Assembly: GCA_007280285.1 (NCBI GenBank)
Contig: QYQA01000060.1
Coordinates: forward strand, 1-49,564
Length of the DNA stretch: 49,564 bases
From: Methylococcus sp.
Lineage (GTDB): Bacteria > Pseudomonadota > Gammaproteobacteria > Methylococcales > Methylococcaceae
Direction of reading: 5' to 3'
Part shown: positions 6,186 to 37,840 of the stretch, piece after piece
Layout of the letters: the number at the start of each line of letters is the position of its first letter
How positions within the stretch are numbered: position 1 is the stretch's first letter
Notes under the pieces: generated by a model
The model's database searches: none
The model's input: only the letters and a program-made list of their open reading frames with translations
What the model was told of the DNA's origin: nothing
Made by a program: the position numbers and the translations under genes

Positions 6186-7850
6186 TCAAGGCGACAAGCG
6201 ACCCCGCCGAAGCACCGGCAGAGCGTCAAGAAGTCGCCGGGTGTGGGGGCTTTGCGGATGAAAAAGAACCTCTCTGACCGGCCCCATCTCGACCAGCCTG
6301 CCATCGTGCATGACGGCCACTCGATCGGCGAGGGCCGAAACCACCCCGAGATCGTGGGTGATAAAAAGGTAGCTGTGACCAAAGCGCTGTTGTAGGGATT
6401 TTAAAAGGTCTATCACCTGCGCCTGAACCGACACATCGAGAGCACTGGTCGGCTCATCACAGATGAGGATCTTAGGTTCTACCGCGAGGGCCCGGGCAAT
6501 GCAGAGCCGCTGGCGTTGGCCACCTGAAAACTCATGCGGGTAACGGCCAAGCGCTGAGGCCTCAAGGCCAACGGCCGTAAGCAGCGATTGAACGCGATCG
6601 GATCGCTCGGAAGGGTCCATGGAAGGCCTCAAGGCCCAAAGACCCTCCTCAAGAATATCAGCCACCACCATTCTGGGATTCATCGAAGCAAAGGGATCTT
6701 GAAAGACCATCTGCAGCATGCCCCGATCCTCGCACCGGGTCCGACCCCCCTCGCCGGAGAGGGGATACCCCGCCAAAAGGACCTCGCCGCTCACCATGGG
6801 CACCAGCCCCAAGAGGGCCTTCCCAAGGGACGTCTTGCCGCAACCTGAAGCCCCCACCAGCGCCAGAGTTTCACCGGGCTCCATCTCGAAAGACACCCCA
6901 TCAACCGCCGGTGGTCTTGGCTTTTGCCTTGAAAAAAGGCCTCTTTGAGCCTCGTAGCGAACCGTGACATCACGAACGCTTAACAGCGCTTCTCGGTTCT
7001 CTTTTGATGCGATGGATCCACTGAAGGGCCTTTCAAAACACGCGTCCAATCGAGGCATCGCCTTCAACAGCGCCTGACTGTAAGGATGGATAGGGCCATC
7101 GAAAAAGGTCCGTCCGGCGGTTTCAACCAGAACGCCCTGATGCATGACGGCGATGCGATCGGCAAGGTCAAACACCGTCCCAAAATCATGTGTAATCAAC
7201 CACAGCGCCATTCCTCGCTCTCGCTGTAACCTGAGCAGGAGCTCTAAAATCTGGGCTTGCAAGGTCACATCAAGAGCGGTCGTCGGCTCATCGGCAATCA
7301 AAAGATCAGGAAGGCCCGCCAGCGCCATGGCGATCATCACTCGTTGCCGCATCCCGCCTGAAAGCTGATGGGGAAAGGCCTTTAACTGTTCCCGAGGATC
7401 AGGAAGGCCGACCTGATCAAGCCAGGCTATGGCTTCAAGCCGCTGTGGTTCGCCCTGAAGTCCCTGATGACGGGTGATCACCTCACCCAGCTGATAACCG
7501 ATGGATAAGACCGGATTCAGTGAGGTCATCGGATCTTGAAAGACCATCCCGATCCGGCCGCCTCTAAAAGTTTCCATCGCTTGCTCAGGCAGTGAGAAAA
7601 GGTCGACGCCATCGAGAAGGACATCCCCCTCGAGCCTCGTTCCTTGCCGCTGCAAAAGTCGCATCACCGACAAGGCGCTCACGGACTTACCAGAACCCGA
7701 CTCCCCCACCAAGGCAAAACATTCACCCCGATGGATATCAAAAGAAACCCCCGCAACAGCGGTGACCTCACTCTCTCCTTGGCAAAACCGCACCCGAAGG
7801 TCACGAACCGACAGCAAAGGGGATGCCGTCAAGGGTTTTCCTAATGACAC
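6186..7850 (-). CDS. Peptide ABC transporter, fused double ATPase (YejF-like)
   Basis: About 554 residues with two complete ABC ATPase domains in one chain, like YejF/GsiA. Domain 1 has GESGSGKS (Walker A), LSGGMRQR (signature) and LLIADEPTTALD (Walker B). Domain 2 has GASGCGKT, FSGGQRQR and ILICDEPTSALD. It powers import by the two permeases encoded directly upstream. The GTG at 7850 is preferred because GAGG lies eight bases before it; a GTG at 7871, overlapping the upstream stop, is an alternative. The operon order of binding protein, permease, permease, fused ATPase matches yejABEF-type peptide importers. Confidence 0.93.
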   Translation of the reverse strand: MSLGKPLTASPLLSVRDLRVRFCQGESEVTAVAGVSFDIHRGECFALVGESGSGKSVSALSVMRLLQRQGTRLEGDVLLDGVDLFSLPEQAMETFRGGRIGMVFQDPMTSLNPVLSIGYQLGEVITRHQGLQGEPQRLEAIAWLDQVGLPDPREQLKAFPHQLSGGMRQRVMIAMALAGLPDLLIADEPTTALDVTLQAQILELLLRLQRERGMALWLITHDFGTVFDLADRIAVMHQGVLVETAGRTFFDGPIHPYSQALLKAMPRLDACFERPFSGSIASKENREALLSVRDVTVRYEAQRGLFSRQKPRPPAVDGVSFEMEPGETLALVGASGCGKTSLGKALLGLVPMVSGEVLLAGYPLSGEGGRTRCEDRGMLQMVFQDPFASMNPRMVVADILEEGLWALRPSMDPSERSDRVQSLLTAVGLEASALGRYPHEFSGGQRQRLCIARALAVEPKILICDEPTSALDVSVQAQVIDLLKSLQQRFGHSYLFITHDLGVVSALADRVAVMHDGRLVEMGPVREVLFHPQSPHTRRLLDALPVLRRGRLSP

Positions 7851-7860
7851 CGCGGCACCC

Positions 7861-32203: not shown

Positions 32204-32920
32204 CTATTGGGCCATGAGGATCAGTTCGCTCGCGGCATCATCAAGCGTCACCTTAAAATGGCGAAGAAAGCTCATCCCTAAAAGCTGCTGTCCCTTGAGT
32301 TTGTCATCCGCCATGAAGGCCACCTCCACATCGGCGACTTCGGCATGCCCCAGGCTGACCCGACTCAACCGTCCAATCTGAACCGGCTCGGTGCCACTGG
32401 CGGTTTGGCTGGTCCCCGACCGAAGGGTCTCTGGAGTGAATCCAAGAGCACCCTCTAAGGAGGCCGGCAATACCAACAAAGAGGCTCCGGTATCGATCAG
32501 CAGGGTCAAGGTCTTCGTCCCTGAAGGCCCCGTCAAACGCACCTCGACCTCATGATGAGAACCCTGACGATGGGTGGACACTTGGGTCACCCCGGATGAC
32601 TGGCGGGATAAAGGAGCACCCCTTGCACCGAGAATACGAACCGATTCGATGACCCCGGGCTTTGCGAGCGTCATGGTGTAGTTGTAGCCCTCTAACCACC
32701 GGCGGACCTGCCTTAAGGGGTCCCCCGTGGGCGGCTGGACCATCAAAGGCTCCAGTCGATCAGCCCCTTCGATACGGAACCCTGTTTGGTGGGCTAGGGC
32801 CTCAAGGGCCTCATTTAGAGGCTGTTGGCCTTCTAAAGCCTCAAGGCGACTGATCGTGAGGGAGGCGATCAGGACCCCGCCCAACGCCAGCACCCTTCGC
32901 GCTGATAACCCCCATTTCAC
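32204..32920 (-). CDS. Retropepsin-like aspartic protease (clan AA), exported
   Basis: A 238-residue protein with an N-terminal signal or anchor (VLALGGVLIASLTIS). Residues about 30-97 resemble a secretin/TonB-type short N-terminal domain (ALEALAHQTGFRIEG). A clan AA protease domain follows, with active-site D143-T-G-A-S147 and the later LLGMSFLRHFKVTLDD flap/hydrophobic-Gly region. Enzymes of this type act as dimers. The GTG start overlaps the upstream mtdB-like stop (GTGA, 32917-32920), so it is probably coupled to C1 metabolism genes. Its substrate is unknown. Confidence 0.85.
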   Translation of the reverse strand: MKWGLSARRVLALGGVLIASLTISRLEALEGQQPLNEALEALAHQTGFRIEGADRLEPLMVQPPTGDPLRQVRRWLEGYNYTMTLAKPGVIESVRILGARGAPLSRQSSGVTQVSTHRQGSHHEVEVRLTGPSGTKTLTLLIDTGASLLVLPASLEGALGFTPETLRSGTSQTASGTEPVQIGRLSRVSLGHAEVADVEVAFMADDKLKGQQLLGMSFLRHFKVTLDDAASELILMAQ

Positions 32921-33831
32921 ACTAATCGCCGCGCTTCTTCGAAGGCCCGACGAAAATCAATATACAACGGCGTTTCGCTGCTCAACAAAGAGGCCAACAG
33001 GGCGTTCTGCAACTTGTATTTGATATCCCCGACCGCGAGGGCGCCAATCCCTAAGGCGCCTGCTGCGTTCACCGCGTGAAGCAGCGGTTCGCCATCATGA
33101 CTGCGCTTAATCCCCTCGATGCCAAGCGGCGGGACCGCATTCACATCCCCAGCGACCTTCAGCTGGGTCGCATCGGATAAGACGCTGGCATTAAGGACCT
33201 GAACACCCGCCTTAGCCGTACAGAAAATGACATCGGCCTGGGCGAGGAGACGCGCCTTATCGGCATCAGAACTGGCATAGGTACCCACCATCGTTGAACC
33301 GCAACGCTCGTTATATTCCCGCGCCTTGTCGAGGGCATGATCGACATTGAATGGATCAACAATGGTGACATTAGCCCCGGCTAAGGAGGCAATGACCGCC
33401 GTTGCAATCCCGACAGGGCCGGTGCCACCGAAGACCACGGCCTGGGCCCCTTTGAGTTCATCGCCATGACGGGATTTGAGTTGCCGCTCGACACAGGCCA
33501 CCAAGGCGGCGGCGGTCGTAAAGGCACCGCTCGGGTCCGCTAAAACGGAGACCACAAACGGGGGAACCATGGCCTTCCGCGCCGCCTCGAGCATATTGAG
33601 CGCCACGCCGATATCCCGGCCACCAATAAAAATACCCGTCCGTTTGACGCCAGAGGGGCCTCTCGAAAAGATCGCATCTTGAACTAAGCCATTGACCTGA
33701 TCCAGCTGAACGTTGTCAGTGGGAAAAACGTGGTCAAAGCCGGCATCGACCGCCATGTTGATGTCAAAGGGGCTGACATGGGGCATCGGGTCCAGCATGT
33801 GAAGGACGCTGCGTTTTTCAGCTTTTTGCAT
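32917..33831 (-). CDS. mtdB: Methylene-tetrahydromethanopterin dehydrogenase paralogue (probable NAD type)
   Basis: A 304-residue MtdB-family enzyme that oxidises methylene-H4MPT to methenyl-H4MPT in formaldehyde oxidation. Landmarks are HVSPFDINMAVDAGFD, KRTGIFIGGRD, DPSGAFTTAAALVA and VAGDVNAVPPLGIEGI. In the Rossmann fold GGTGPVG is followed by ANVTIVDPFNVDHA, where the Asp after the second strand suggests NAD preference. The start is ATG 33831 with GGAGG seven bases upstream; in-frame sequence further up lacks this. It follows its paralogue by 48 bases. The two are roughly half identical by eye. Confidence 0.9.
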   Translation of the reverse strand: MQKAEKRSVLHMLDPMPHVSPFDINMAVDAGFDHVFPTDNVQLDQVNGLVQDAIFSRGPSGVKRTGIFIGGRDIGVALNMLEAARKAMVPPFVVSVLADPSGAFTTAAALVACVERQLKSRHGDELKGAQAVVFGGTGPVGIATAVIASLAGANVTIVDPFNVDHALDKAREYNERCGSTMVGTYASSDADKARLLAQADVIFCTAKAGVQVLNASVLSDATQLKVAGDVNAVPPLGIEGIKRSHDGEPLLHAVNAAGALGIGALAVGDIKYKLQNALLASLLSSETPLYIDFRRAFEEARRLV

Positions 33832-33879
33832 CAAAAGACCTCCAAGGCGTGATGATTCATTGGGGGATGACCTCAAAAT

Positions 33880-34794
33880 CTAGTTCGCGCGCGCGAATTC
33901 ACGGGCGAGCTCGAACGCATCATCAAAGCTGAGATAAATCGGGTGCGTCGTTTCCCGCATGCGCTTTAACAAAGCACTCTGGGTTTTATACTTAATATGG
34001 CCAATCGCGAGGGCGCCCACCCCTAAAGCGCCACTTTCAGAGCCTGCGATCGGGTGAGCCCGGTGATGCGCATCAAGACCTGCGATCCCCGAGGGTGGCA
34101 CCGCATTGACATCGGCAGCAATTTTGAGGGATGAAGCGAGCGCGATGAGTTCGCTGCTGAGGACTTCAATGCCGGCCGCAGCCGTTGCAAACACAATGTC
34201 GGCATCGGTGATCAGATCCCCTTTGTGGGCATCAGCATCGCCAATGATCTGAGTCTGACCATCACCGAATTCGCTATCGCAAAGATGCGCCATGGCCTGA
34301 GCCTTCTCCAGCTGGCGACCGATGATCGTGACCTCAGCGCCGGCTTTGGCGGCCAGTGTGGCTGCAATCTGCCCGACCGGGCCGGTGCCTCCAAGGGCTA
34401 GAACCTTCTTGCCTTCGAGGGTCGTATGGAAATGGTGTTCAAGCGCCTGTTCCACTACAGCGACCATGGCAGCGGCCGTGGTAAACGCACCACTTGGATC
34501 CGCAAACACCGACACCTCAAAGGGAGGGACCATCGACTTCATGGCGCTCCTGACCATGTCGACGGCCATCTTGGCATCGCGACCACCGATAAAGATGCCG
34601 GTCCGCTTGAGGCCGCCTGGGCTTCTTGAAAAGATGGCGTCCTGAACGAGAGCCTGGATGTCTTGAGGCTCCACATGGAGGTAAGGAATCGCCGAGGTCC
34701 ACCCTGCATCGAGGGCCATGTTGACATCAAACGGGCTGAGATTCTTCTCCGGCGTGAACATATGAAGAATATAGGGCTTTTCCAGCTTTTCCAT
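33880..34794 (-). CDS. mtdB: Methylene-tetrahydromethanopterin dehydrogenase (probable NADP type)
   Basis: A 304-residue MtdB-family enzyme, first gene of the pair. It has NLSPFDVNMALDAGW, KRTGIFIGGRDAK, DPSGAFTTAAAMVAVVEQ and IAADVNAVPPSGIAGLD. After GGTGPVG the loop reads EVTIIGRQLEKAQ. The Gly-Arg pattern with a downstream Lys is like the NADP-binding loop of MtdA (GRKLDKAQ), so NADP preference is inferred, whereas the downstream copy carries Asp at the equivalent point. The overall sequence is nevertheless closer to MtdB than to MtdA. H4MPT enzymes mark the organism as a methylotroph or formaldehyde oxidiser. Confidence 0.9.
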   Translation of the reverse strand: MEKLEKPYILHMFTPEKNLSPFDVNMALDAGWTSAIPYLHVEPQDIQALVQDAIFSRSPGGLKRTGIFIGGRDAKMAVDMVRSAMKSMVPPFEVSVFADPSGAFTTAAAMVAVVEQALEHHFHTTLEGKKVLALGGTGPVGQIAATLAAKAGAEVTIIGRQLEKAQAMAHLCDSEFGDGQTQIIGDADAHKGDLITDADIVFATAAAGIEVLSSELIALASSLKIAADVNAVPPSGIAGLDAHHRAHPIAGSESGALGVGALAIGHIKYKTQSALLKRMRETTHPIYLSFDDAFELAREFARAN

Positions 34795-34995: not shown

Positions 34996-35041
34996 CGTCG
35001 GTTAATTGTTTTTTTTACTTCACCTGAGGATCAGCAGCACC

Positions 35042-36217
35042 GTGAGCAGCAGCTACTTCTTTACCTCTGAATCTGTTTCAGAAGGCCATCCCGATAAGGT
35101 TTCCGATCAGATCTCCGATGCCATTCTGGATGCCCTCCTCGCTCAGGATAAGCACTCCAGAGTCGCGGCTGAGACCCTCTGTAATACCGGTCTCGTCGTG
35201 CTGGCTGGGGAGATCACCACCCACGCAAGCGTTGATTACATCAAGGTGGCGCGAGATGTACTGCAGCAAATTGGCTATACCAACACCGAATACGGCATCG
35301 ACTACAAGGGCTGCGCCGTTCTGGTGGCCTACGACAAGCAGTCGCCGGATATTGCCCAAGGCGTCGACAAGGCCTTTGACGATGATTTTGGCCAGGGAGC
35401 CGGTGATCAGGGCTTGATGTTCGGTTATGCCTGCGATGAAACGCCGACCCTGATGCCGATGCCGATTTATCTCGCCCATCGTCTCGTAGAACGTCAGGCG
35501 CGTCTTCGTCACGACGGCCAGCTGACTTGGTTGCGCCCCGACGCCAAGAGTCAGGTCACCATTCGCTACGTCAACGGGCGTCCTGACTCCATCCATACCG
35601 TGGTGGTGTCGACCCAACATGCGCCCGATGTCAGCGAATCGACCCTCCGCGAAGCGGTCATTGAGGACATCATCAAACCGATCATCCCAAAGGAGCTCAT
35701 CAAGGGCGACGTCAACTTCCTCGTGAATCCGACCGGTCGTTTTGTGGTCGGCGGCCCTCAAGGCGATTGCGGCCTCACCGGCCGCAAGATCATCGTGGAT
35801 ACCTATGGCGGTTCAGCACCCCATGGCGGCGGCGCATTTTCTGGTAAGGATCCATCTAAAGTTGACCGCTCGGCCGCTTATGCCAGCCGCTATGTTGCGA
35901 AAAACATCGTCGCTGCGGGTCTTGCTTCACGCTGCATGCTGCAGGTCTCTTACGCCATCGGCGTGGCCAAGCCCACCAGCGTCATGGTCGAAACCTACGG
36001 GACCGGCAAGATTTCAGATGAAAAGATCACCGATCTGGTCCTTGAACATTTTGACCTTCGCCCCCACGGTATCGTCAACATGCTGGATCTCCTTCGGCCG
36101 ATTTATCAGAAGACCGCCTCCTACGGCCATTTTGGCCGCGAGGAGCCGGAATTCACCTGGGAAAAGACGGACAAGGCCGCACTCCTTCGGGACGCGGCAG
36201 GTCTTCCTCCCCAGTAA
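35042..36217 (+). CDS. metK: S-adenosylmethionine synthetase
   Basis: A 391-residue MetK that makes SAM from methionine and ATP. The N-terminal [31 protein letters not shown], the [21 protein letters not shown] block and the [19 protein letters not shown] motif are all present. The GTG at 35042 is preferred as start since it gives the usual short lead before the conserved FTSESV; a longer in-frame extension upstream is unrelated. It heads the metK, ahcY, metF methyl-cycle set and supplies SAM to HpnH and other methylation steps. Confidence 0.97.
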
Positions 36218-36261: not shown

Positions 36262-36334
36262 GGCGACGAGGAGCGCTGCGACGGGACATTCCCGCCAGGC
36301 TCGTCACCGTGGTTTTTTAGGAAACGGCGCTCGA
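36262..36334 (+). ncRNA. SAH riboswitch in the ahcY leader
   Basis: The sequence matches the S-adenosylhomocysteine riboswitch core. P1 is GACGAG (36265-36270) with CTCGTC (36300-36305). P2 is CGGGA (36282-36286) with TCCCG (36290-36294). The pseudoknot is GAGCGC (36271-36276) with GCGCTC (36327-36332). The conserved GAGGAGCGCTGC and GCCAGGCTCG strings are intact. It should raise ahcY expression when SAH accumulates. Confidence 0.93.
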
Positions 36335-36339
36335 TTCAC

Positions 36340-36415: not shown

Positions 36416-37840
36416 ATGAACGCTGTTTCTAAGACCAACCCCTTCAGTGACTTTAAAGTCCACGATCTAAGCCTCGCATCTTGGGGCCACAAAGAAATCC
36501 GCATCGCCGAAACCGAAATGCCAGGCCTCATGGCCATCCGCGAAGAATACGCAAAGACCCAGCCGCTCTCAGGCGCCAGGATCACCGGATCTCTTCACAT
36601 GACCATCCAGACAGCCGTCCTGATTGAGACGCTGATCGCCCTCGGGGCTGAGGTCCGCTGGGCGTCTTGTAATATTTTCTCAACCCAAGATCATGCCGCC
36701 GCAGCGATCGCCGATCAGGGGATCCCCGTTTTTGCGGTCAAGGGTGAAACCCTCGAGGAATACTGGGACTACACCCATAGGATCTTTGAGTGGGCGGATG
36801 GCGGCTACTCCAACATGATCCTTGATGATGGCGGTGACGCTACCCTCCTCTTACACCTCGGCGCGCGGGCTGAACAAGATCTCTCGGTGCTGGGATCCCC
36901 AGCCTCTGAAGAGGAACGCGTCCTTTTTGCCGCAATCAAGACGACGCTTCAGGAAGACGCCCACTGGTACTCTGACCGCCTTTCCAAGATCAAGGGCGTC
37001 ACCGAAGAGACCACCACGGGGGTTCACCGCCTTTATCAGATGCATCAGCGCGGTGAACTCAAGTTCCCCGGCATCAATGTCAATGATTCTGTGACCAAGT
37101 CAAAGTTCGATAACCTCTACGGCTGCCGGGAGTCTCTGGTCGATGGCATCAAGCGCGCTACCGATGTCATGATCGCCGGCAAAATCGCCGTGGTCGCTGG
37201 CTACGGTGATGTCGGCAAGGGGTCCGCCCAAGCCCTTCGGGCACTTTCAGCACAGGTTTGGGTGACCGAAGTTGACCCGATCTGCGCCCTTCAGGCCGCC
37301 ATGGAAGGTTATCGTGTGGTCACGATGGATGAAGCCTGCTCTCAGGCCGACATTTTCGTCACCGCGACCGGCAACTACCACGTCATCACCCATGACCACA
37401 TGGTGAAGATGAAAAATCAGGCCATCGTCTGCAACATTGGCCATTTTGATAATGAAATCGAAGTCGCCGCTATCGAAAAATACCAGTGGGAAGAAATCAA
37501 GCCCCAGGTCGATCATGTGATCTTTCCCGACGGGAAGCGCATTATCCTTCTCGCCAAGGGCCGTCTGGTCAATCTCGGCTGCGGCACCGGACATCCCTCC
37601 TATGTCATGTCTTCAAGCTTTGCTAACCAGACGATCGCTCAAATTGAATTGTGGATTGAACGGGATTCGGGGAAGTATCCGGTGGGCGTCTATACCCTTC
37701 CAAAGCATCTCGATGAGAAGGTCGCGCGCCTGCAACTTAAAACACTCAACGCGGTGCTGACGACCCTCACCTCGGAGCAGGCGGCCTATATCGGGGTGAC
37801 CCAAGATGGCCCCTTTAAGCCAGATCACTATCGGTACTAA
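36416..37840 (+). CDS. ahcY: Adenosylhomocysteinase
   Basis: A 474-residue SAH hydrolase that splits SAH to adenosine and homocysteine, relieving product inhibition of methyltransferases. The NAD site [11 protein letters not shown], the substrate region [22 protein letters not shown] and the C-terminal KPDHYRY are diagnostic. The larger bacterial form, with an insert near residues 150-190, fits the length. ATG 36416 has GGAG nine bases upstream. Its long leader carries the SAH riboswitch. Confidence 0.97.

Follow-up and report, generated by a model that had tools for sequence, protein, structure and literature searches.

Two genes for MtdB-type methylene-H4MPT dehydrogenases stand in tandem in the window, the whole 49,564-nucleotide stretch of a Methylococcus sp. 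contig analysed in this study. The protein encoded by the first gene (A) carries an NADP-type cofactor loop and the protein encoded by the second (B) an NAD-type loop, and tandem pairs across the order Methylococcales show this same division. The reading we favour, at a probability of roughly 70%, is that A and B are each a complete methylene-H4MPT dehydrogenase of the pathway from formaldehyde to formate, the former NADP-linked and the latter NAD-linked, which together would set the yield of NADPH and NADH.

Gene A occupies 33880-34794 and gene B 32917-33831, both on the minus strand and each encoding 304 amino acids. The 48-base spacer between them (33832-33879) holds a GGAGG just upstream of an ATG that is probably the start of B, and translation probably does not begin at the alternative TTG (33876). 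Over 307 columns, A and B share 48% of their residues (E 6e-94), so the first-pass annotation was right in describing two MtdB-family genes 48 bases apart and about half identical. The glycine loop GGTGPVG, which binds the dinucleotide, is found at residues 135-141 of both proteins (34372-34392 in A and 33409-33429 in B), and the cofactor loops quoted in that annotation, TIIGRQLEKAQ for A and TIVDPFNVD for B, read the same in the translations. The spacing suggests that A and B share a transcript. Neither a sigma-70 promoter-like site upstream of A nor a regulatory RNA at the pair was found. The genome is 2.22 Mb in size and 88% complete, and a third family member, identified as mtdA by the tree, lies on a separate contig. 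A gene for a retropepsin-like aspartyl protease (32204-32920, minus strand) overlaps the stop codon of B by four bases and has a homologue in only 4 of 53 compared loci. The metK-like gene at 35006-36217 is divergently oriented relative to the mtdB pair. A SAH riboswitch (RF01057, 55.3 bits) was detected at 36262-36339 on the plus strand, directly 5' of an adenosylhomocysteinase-like gene at 36416, and the next gene after this one is metF-like.

Both proteins belong to the Pfam family Mpt_N, with 126.8 bits for A and 119.5 bits for B against a cut-off of 27 (E 3.6e-37 and 6.6e-35, respectively). Among solved structures, the only full-length relatives are those of MtdA (1LU9, 6TGE and 6TLK; E 1e-36 to 1e-41), the NADP-dependent methylene-H4MPT/methylene-H4F enzyme of Methylorubrum extorquens AM1. 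The AlphaFold models of A and B have pLDDT values of 96.4 and 96.5, and their nearest folds are MtdA 6TLK and 1LU9, with TM scores of 0.87-0.90 by query length. A and B thus share with MtdA the fold (TM ~0.9) and a conserved core. However, MtdA is only 31-33% identical to the two proteins and forms its own clade (100/100), which excludes both; at the MtdA/MtdB split, A and B group with MtdB. Among columns conserved at 95% or more across MtdA and MtdB, 33 of 33 are retained in both A and B. The dN/dS ratios against the nearest relative (L033) are 0.09 for A and 0.06 for B, and the ratio lies between 0.04 and 0.09 in every comparison that could be computed; A of L034 and B of L018 gave no value owing to saturated dS. 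Both genes are under purifying selection, and decay of one gene of the pair is ruled out by these ratios and by the intact core residues. Because the 33 conserved columns are kept and dN/dS is low, A and B are both probably active enzymes.

In Rossmann folds, an Asp at the end of the second beta strand (beta-2) classically indicates an NAD enzyme, and a Gly-Arg at this place an NADP enzyme. Beta-2 consists of residues 154-159 in both AlphaFold models. In B, residues 155-166 (VTIVDPFNVDHA, 33334-33369) include Asp159 (33355-33357), the final residue of the strand, and this Asp is fixed throughout the B clade. In A, residues 155-166 (VTIIGRQLEKAQ, 34297-34332) cover the strand end and the cofactor loop, with Gly159 as the final strand residue, then Arg160, and Lys164 one turn later. 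Just after beta-2, A has a basic residue instead of an acidic one, the same pattern as in MtdA. The loop of A is in fact nearly identical to that of the NADP-specific MtdA (IGRQLEKAQ in A and CGRKLDKAQ in MtdA), whereas B has Asp where the GR stands. Throughout the Methylococcales, GR is found at the beta-2 end in every A, and D followed by H or P in every B with a readable loop; single MtdB genes elsewhere have mostly neutral loops (SHxG and GHDG, for example). A chance origin of the two loop types is excluded, since the same two types recur in every distinct pair examined. The earlier assignment of an NADP-type loop to A and an NAD-type loop to B is thus backed by the residue at the end of beta-2, by the likeness of A to MtdA and by fixation across the order, and the structural modelling proposed as a check placed D159 of B and G159 of A on the final residue of the strand. 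The order-wide fixation strengthens the cofactor interpretation, although it does not prove it.

We infer the cofactor preferences and the physiological role of A and B as follows. Protein A would reduce NADP+, with Arg160 and Lys164 of the GRQLEK loop holding the 2'-phosphate as in MtdA. Protein B would reduce NAD+, with Asp159 at the end of beta-2 holding the adenosine ribose hydroxyls and repelling a 2'-phosphate. Expressed from one transcript in fixed order, the two enzymes would allow the same formaldehyde step to supply assimilation with NADPH, and respiration and methane monooxygenase with NADH; MtdA and the transhydrogenase PntAB would be additional levers. The GHDG loop at locus L132 resembles the loop of M. 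extorquens MtdB. Loop type alone may not confer strict specificity, since M. extorquens MtdB, whose loop would by this resemblance be of the neutral type, is described as using either cofactor in a metabolic model (PMC3227643). A and B might likewise both accept NAD and NADP, as alphaproteobacterial MtdB does, and be kept as a pair for dosage or for differing expression conditions. Formaldehyde flux is high in methanotrophs, and extra stand-alone D-type copies are present in genome G016, both of which would suit such an arrangement. Nevertheless, we consider it unlikely, for it explains neither the loop states that never mix across the order nor the separate lineages of A and B.

The pairing of A and B is an order-wide trait and not a peculiarity of this genome. 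Mpt_N genes are present in 277 of the 301 genomes of the order, and the genomes without any belong mostly to families f6 and f7. About 250 of these 277 hold at least three such genes, so the earlier view of the pair as unusual does not stand. That most methylotrophs carry a single mtdB, as had also been stated, is true of most genomes sampled outside the Methylococcales but not of the order itself, where the extra gene is present in nearly all genomes that have the family. Among the loci read, all 76 distinct pairs have A and then B on the same strand, with a median gap of about 38 bases and a gap of 150 bases or less in 69 pairs. Named relatives with the pair include Methylococcus, Methylovulum, Methylobacter, Methylomicrobium and Crenothrix, from which the order was judged to be Methylococcales. 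No adjacent gene pair of the A-B type was found outside the order in a class-wide sample of 369 genomes. Within the window's own genus, the pair was not found in G002 and G003, of which the latter is 98% complete with a single Mpt_N gene and the former has none; the missing pair reflects either an assembly gap or a real loss. In the complete genome G016, the two extra stand-alone D-type copies (L184 and L185) lie far from the tandem pair.

The ancestry of the pair was analyzed with a tree of 104 proteins from which the loop columns were left out. All 21 rows of D-type proteins form one clade (100/97), the B clade, and the A rows fall inside a GR clade (100/99) together with single enzymes from seven other families. 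The phylogeny called for earlier, run here on MtdA and MtdB sequences, thus places A and B in separate clades outside MtdA. Tandem duplication within the Methylococcales, with A and B as one clade, is rejected by the AU test (p 0.0003). A single, older origin for the rows of the GR and D clades taken together is not rejected (p 0.42). A and B thus do not derive from duplication within the order. Either they go back to an older duplication whose products were lost elsewhere, or two lineages have come together. One further Mpt_N subfamily, the fourth, with the odd loop LCQLTADDD (L161, L178, L189 and L197 in G179, G126, G056 and G008) is present in a few Methylococcales and two other families and forms its own clade (99/99).

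The two types also occur separately, the D type without A in family f10 and the GR type without B in f52, f93, f149 and others. This distribution bears on two further explanations. In the first, only one gene of the pair encodes the methylene-H4MPT dehydrogenase of the pathway, and the other enzyme is mainly reductive or acts on another one-carbon carrier, for example tetrahydrofolate. As mtdA is also present in the cell, there seems little need for a third enzyme at this step, and NADP-linked enzymes are frequently reductive in vivo. However, the residues conserved across MtdA and MtdB are all kept in both proteins, and where the sole MtdB-type gene is of the GR type (for example in f52, f93 and f149) or of the D type (f10), it is evidently able to serve the pathway alone, so we regard this explanation as doubtful, somewhat more so than the one based on dosage. 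In the second, A and B form a mixed oligomer and hence their genes are never separated, which would fit their strict adjacency and order despite changing neighbours. This is very improbable, because each type is found alone elsewhere and thus neither needs the other, and because co-transcription for balanced supply accounts for the adjacency without a complex. Three f10 loci (L093, L097 and L105 in G219, G062 and G421) come from near-complete genomes of 1.7-2.6 Mb with MtdB of the D type only; mtdA lies about 2 kb from the D-type gene and the A type is absent. These genomes are a natural test of the D-type enzyme working alone.

The genes flanking the pair vary. The commonest neighbour family outside the pair is present in just 13 of 53 loci, which rules out the pair as a piece of a fixed larger cluster. 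In two genomes from two families, pntA-pntB lies downstream of B on the same strand, at 227 bp in G037 and 371 bp in G039. It lies 3.4 kb further on in G044, and in G017 it converges on the pair from 5.2 kb. About 0.1 case of pntAB within 6 kb would be expected by chance over some 33 genomes, an estimate that assumes random gene placement and ignores kinship. This linkage is confined to a few genomes and hints at a role in redox balance without proving it; a nearby transhydrogenase could also mean that a dedicated enzyme is unnecessary. The first-pass suggestion that the pair routes electrons separately to NADPH and NADH thus gains from the order-wide fixation of the loop types and from the pntAB linkage in some families, but its premise that the pair is peculiar does not hold. 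At L204 (G039), a stretch between B and pntA, at about 7495-7860, resembles a lone CRISPR repeat (GTCGCGCCCTTCCCGGGCGCGTGGATTGAAAC).

Among the closest known systems is the NAD(P)-dependent MtdB of alphaproteobacteria, which shares with A and B full-length homology, a clade apart from MtdA and the expected reaction. It differs in being encoded by one gene, with a neutral loop (GHDG or the like), and in accepting both cofactors (PMC3227643); here two genes have the two extreme loop types. MtdC was reportedly described by Vorholt et al. in 2005 as the NADP-preferring methylene-H4MPT dehydrogenase of planctomycetes. Its described function, methylene-H4MPT with NADP, is the one expected of A. A paper that cites this work sets MtdC apart as a third group (PMC3505017). 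For Methylocaldum, a 2024 genome paper reports one mtdA and two mtdB genes, the latter assigned to separate orthologous groups and treated as redundancy (PMC10974252). The two mtdB genes are very likely the same pair, and the passages on them are silent on loops and cofactors. The presence of two mtdB genes per genome is thus already known. None of the open literature searched mentions the cofactor split, which may have been noted elsewhere, for example in subscription papers on M. capsulatus enzymes. The same search found neither cofactor kinetics for an A or B enzyme nor a naming as mtdB1/mtdB2.

Metabolic models still rely on assumptions about the NADPH source of methanotrophs. According to one M. 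capsulatus model, the sole NADP-linked step known for C1 oxidation is 6-phosphogluconate dehydrogenase (PMC6613435). In a model of M. buryatense, NADH and NADPH are freely interconverted (PMC4658805). The main texts of both contain no cofactor split at the methylene-H4MPT step. We see about even odds that the Methylococcales as a whole have a cofactor switch at the formaldehyde node, made of an NADP enzyme and an NAD enzyme of the MtdB type that are encoded side by side and differ in ancestry. Among bacterial methylene-H4MPT dehydrogenases, B would then be the first class dedicated to NAD, next to MtdB with its dual cofactor use and to MtdA and MtdC, which are NADP-linked. Should the whole order have an NADP-linked A and an NAD-linked B, the oxidation of formaldehyde would itself be an adjustable source of NADPH; yield predictions would change, and two clear engineering targets would be available. 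The pairing suggests how gammaproteobacterial methanotrophs may split electrons between biosynthesis and respiration.
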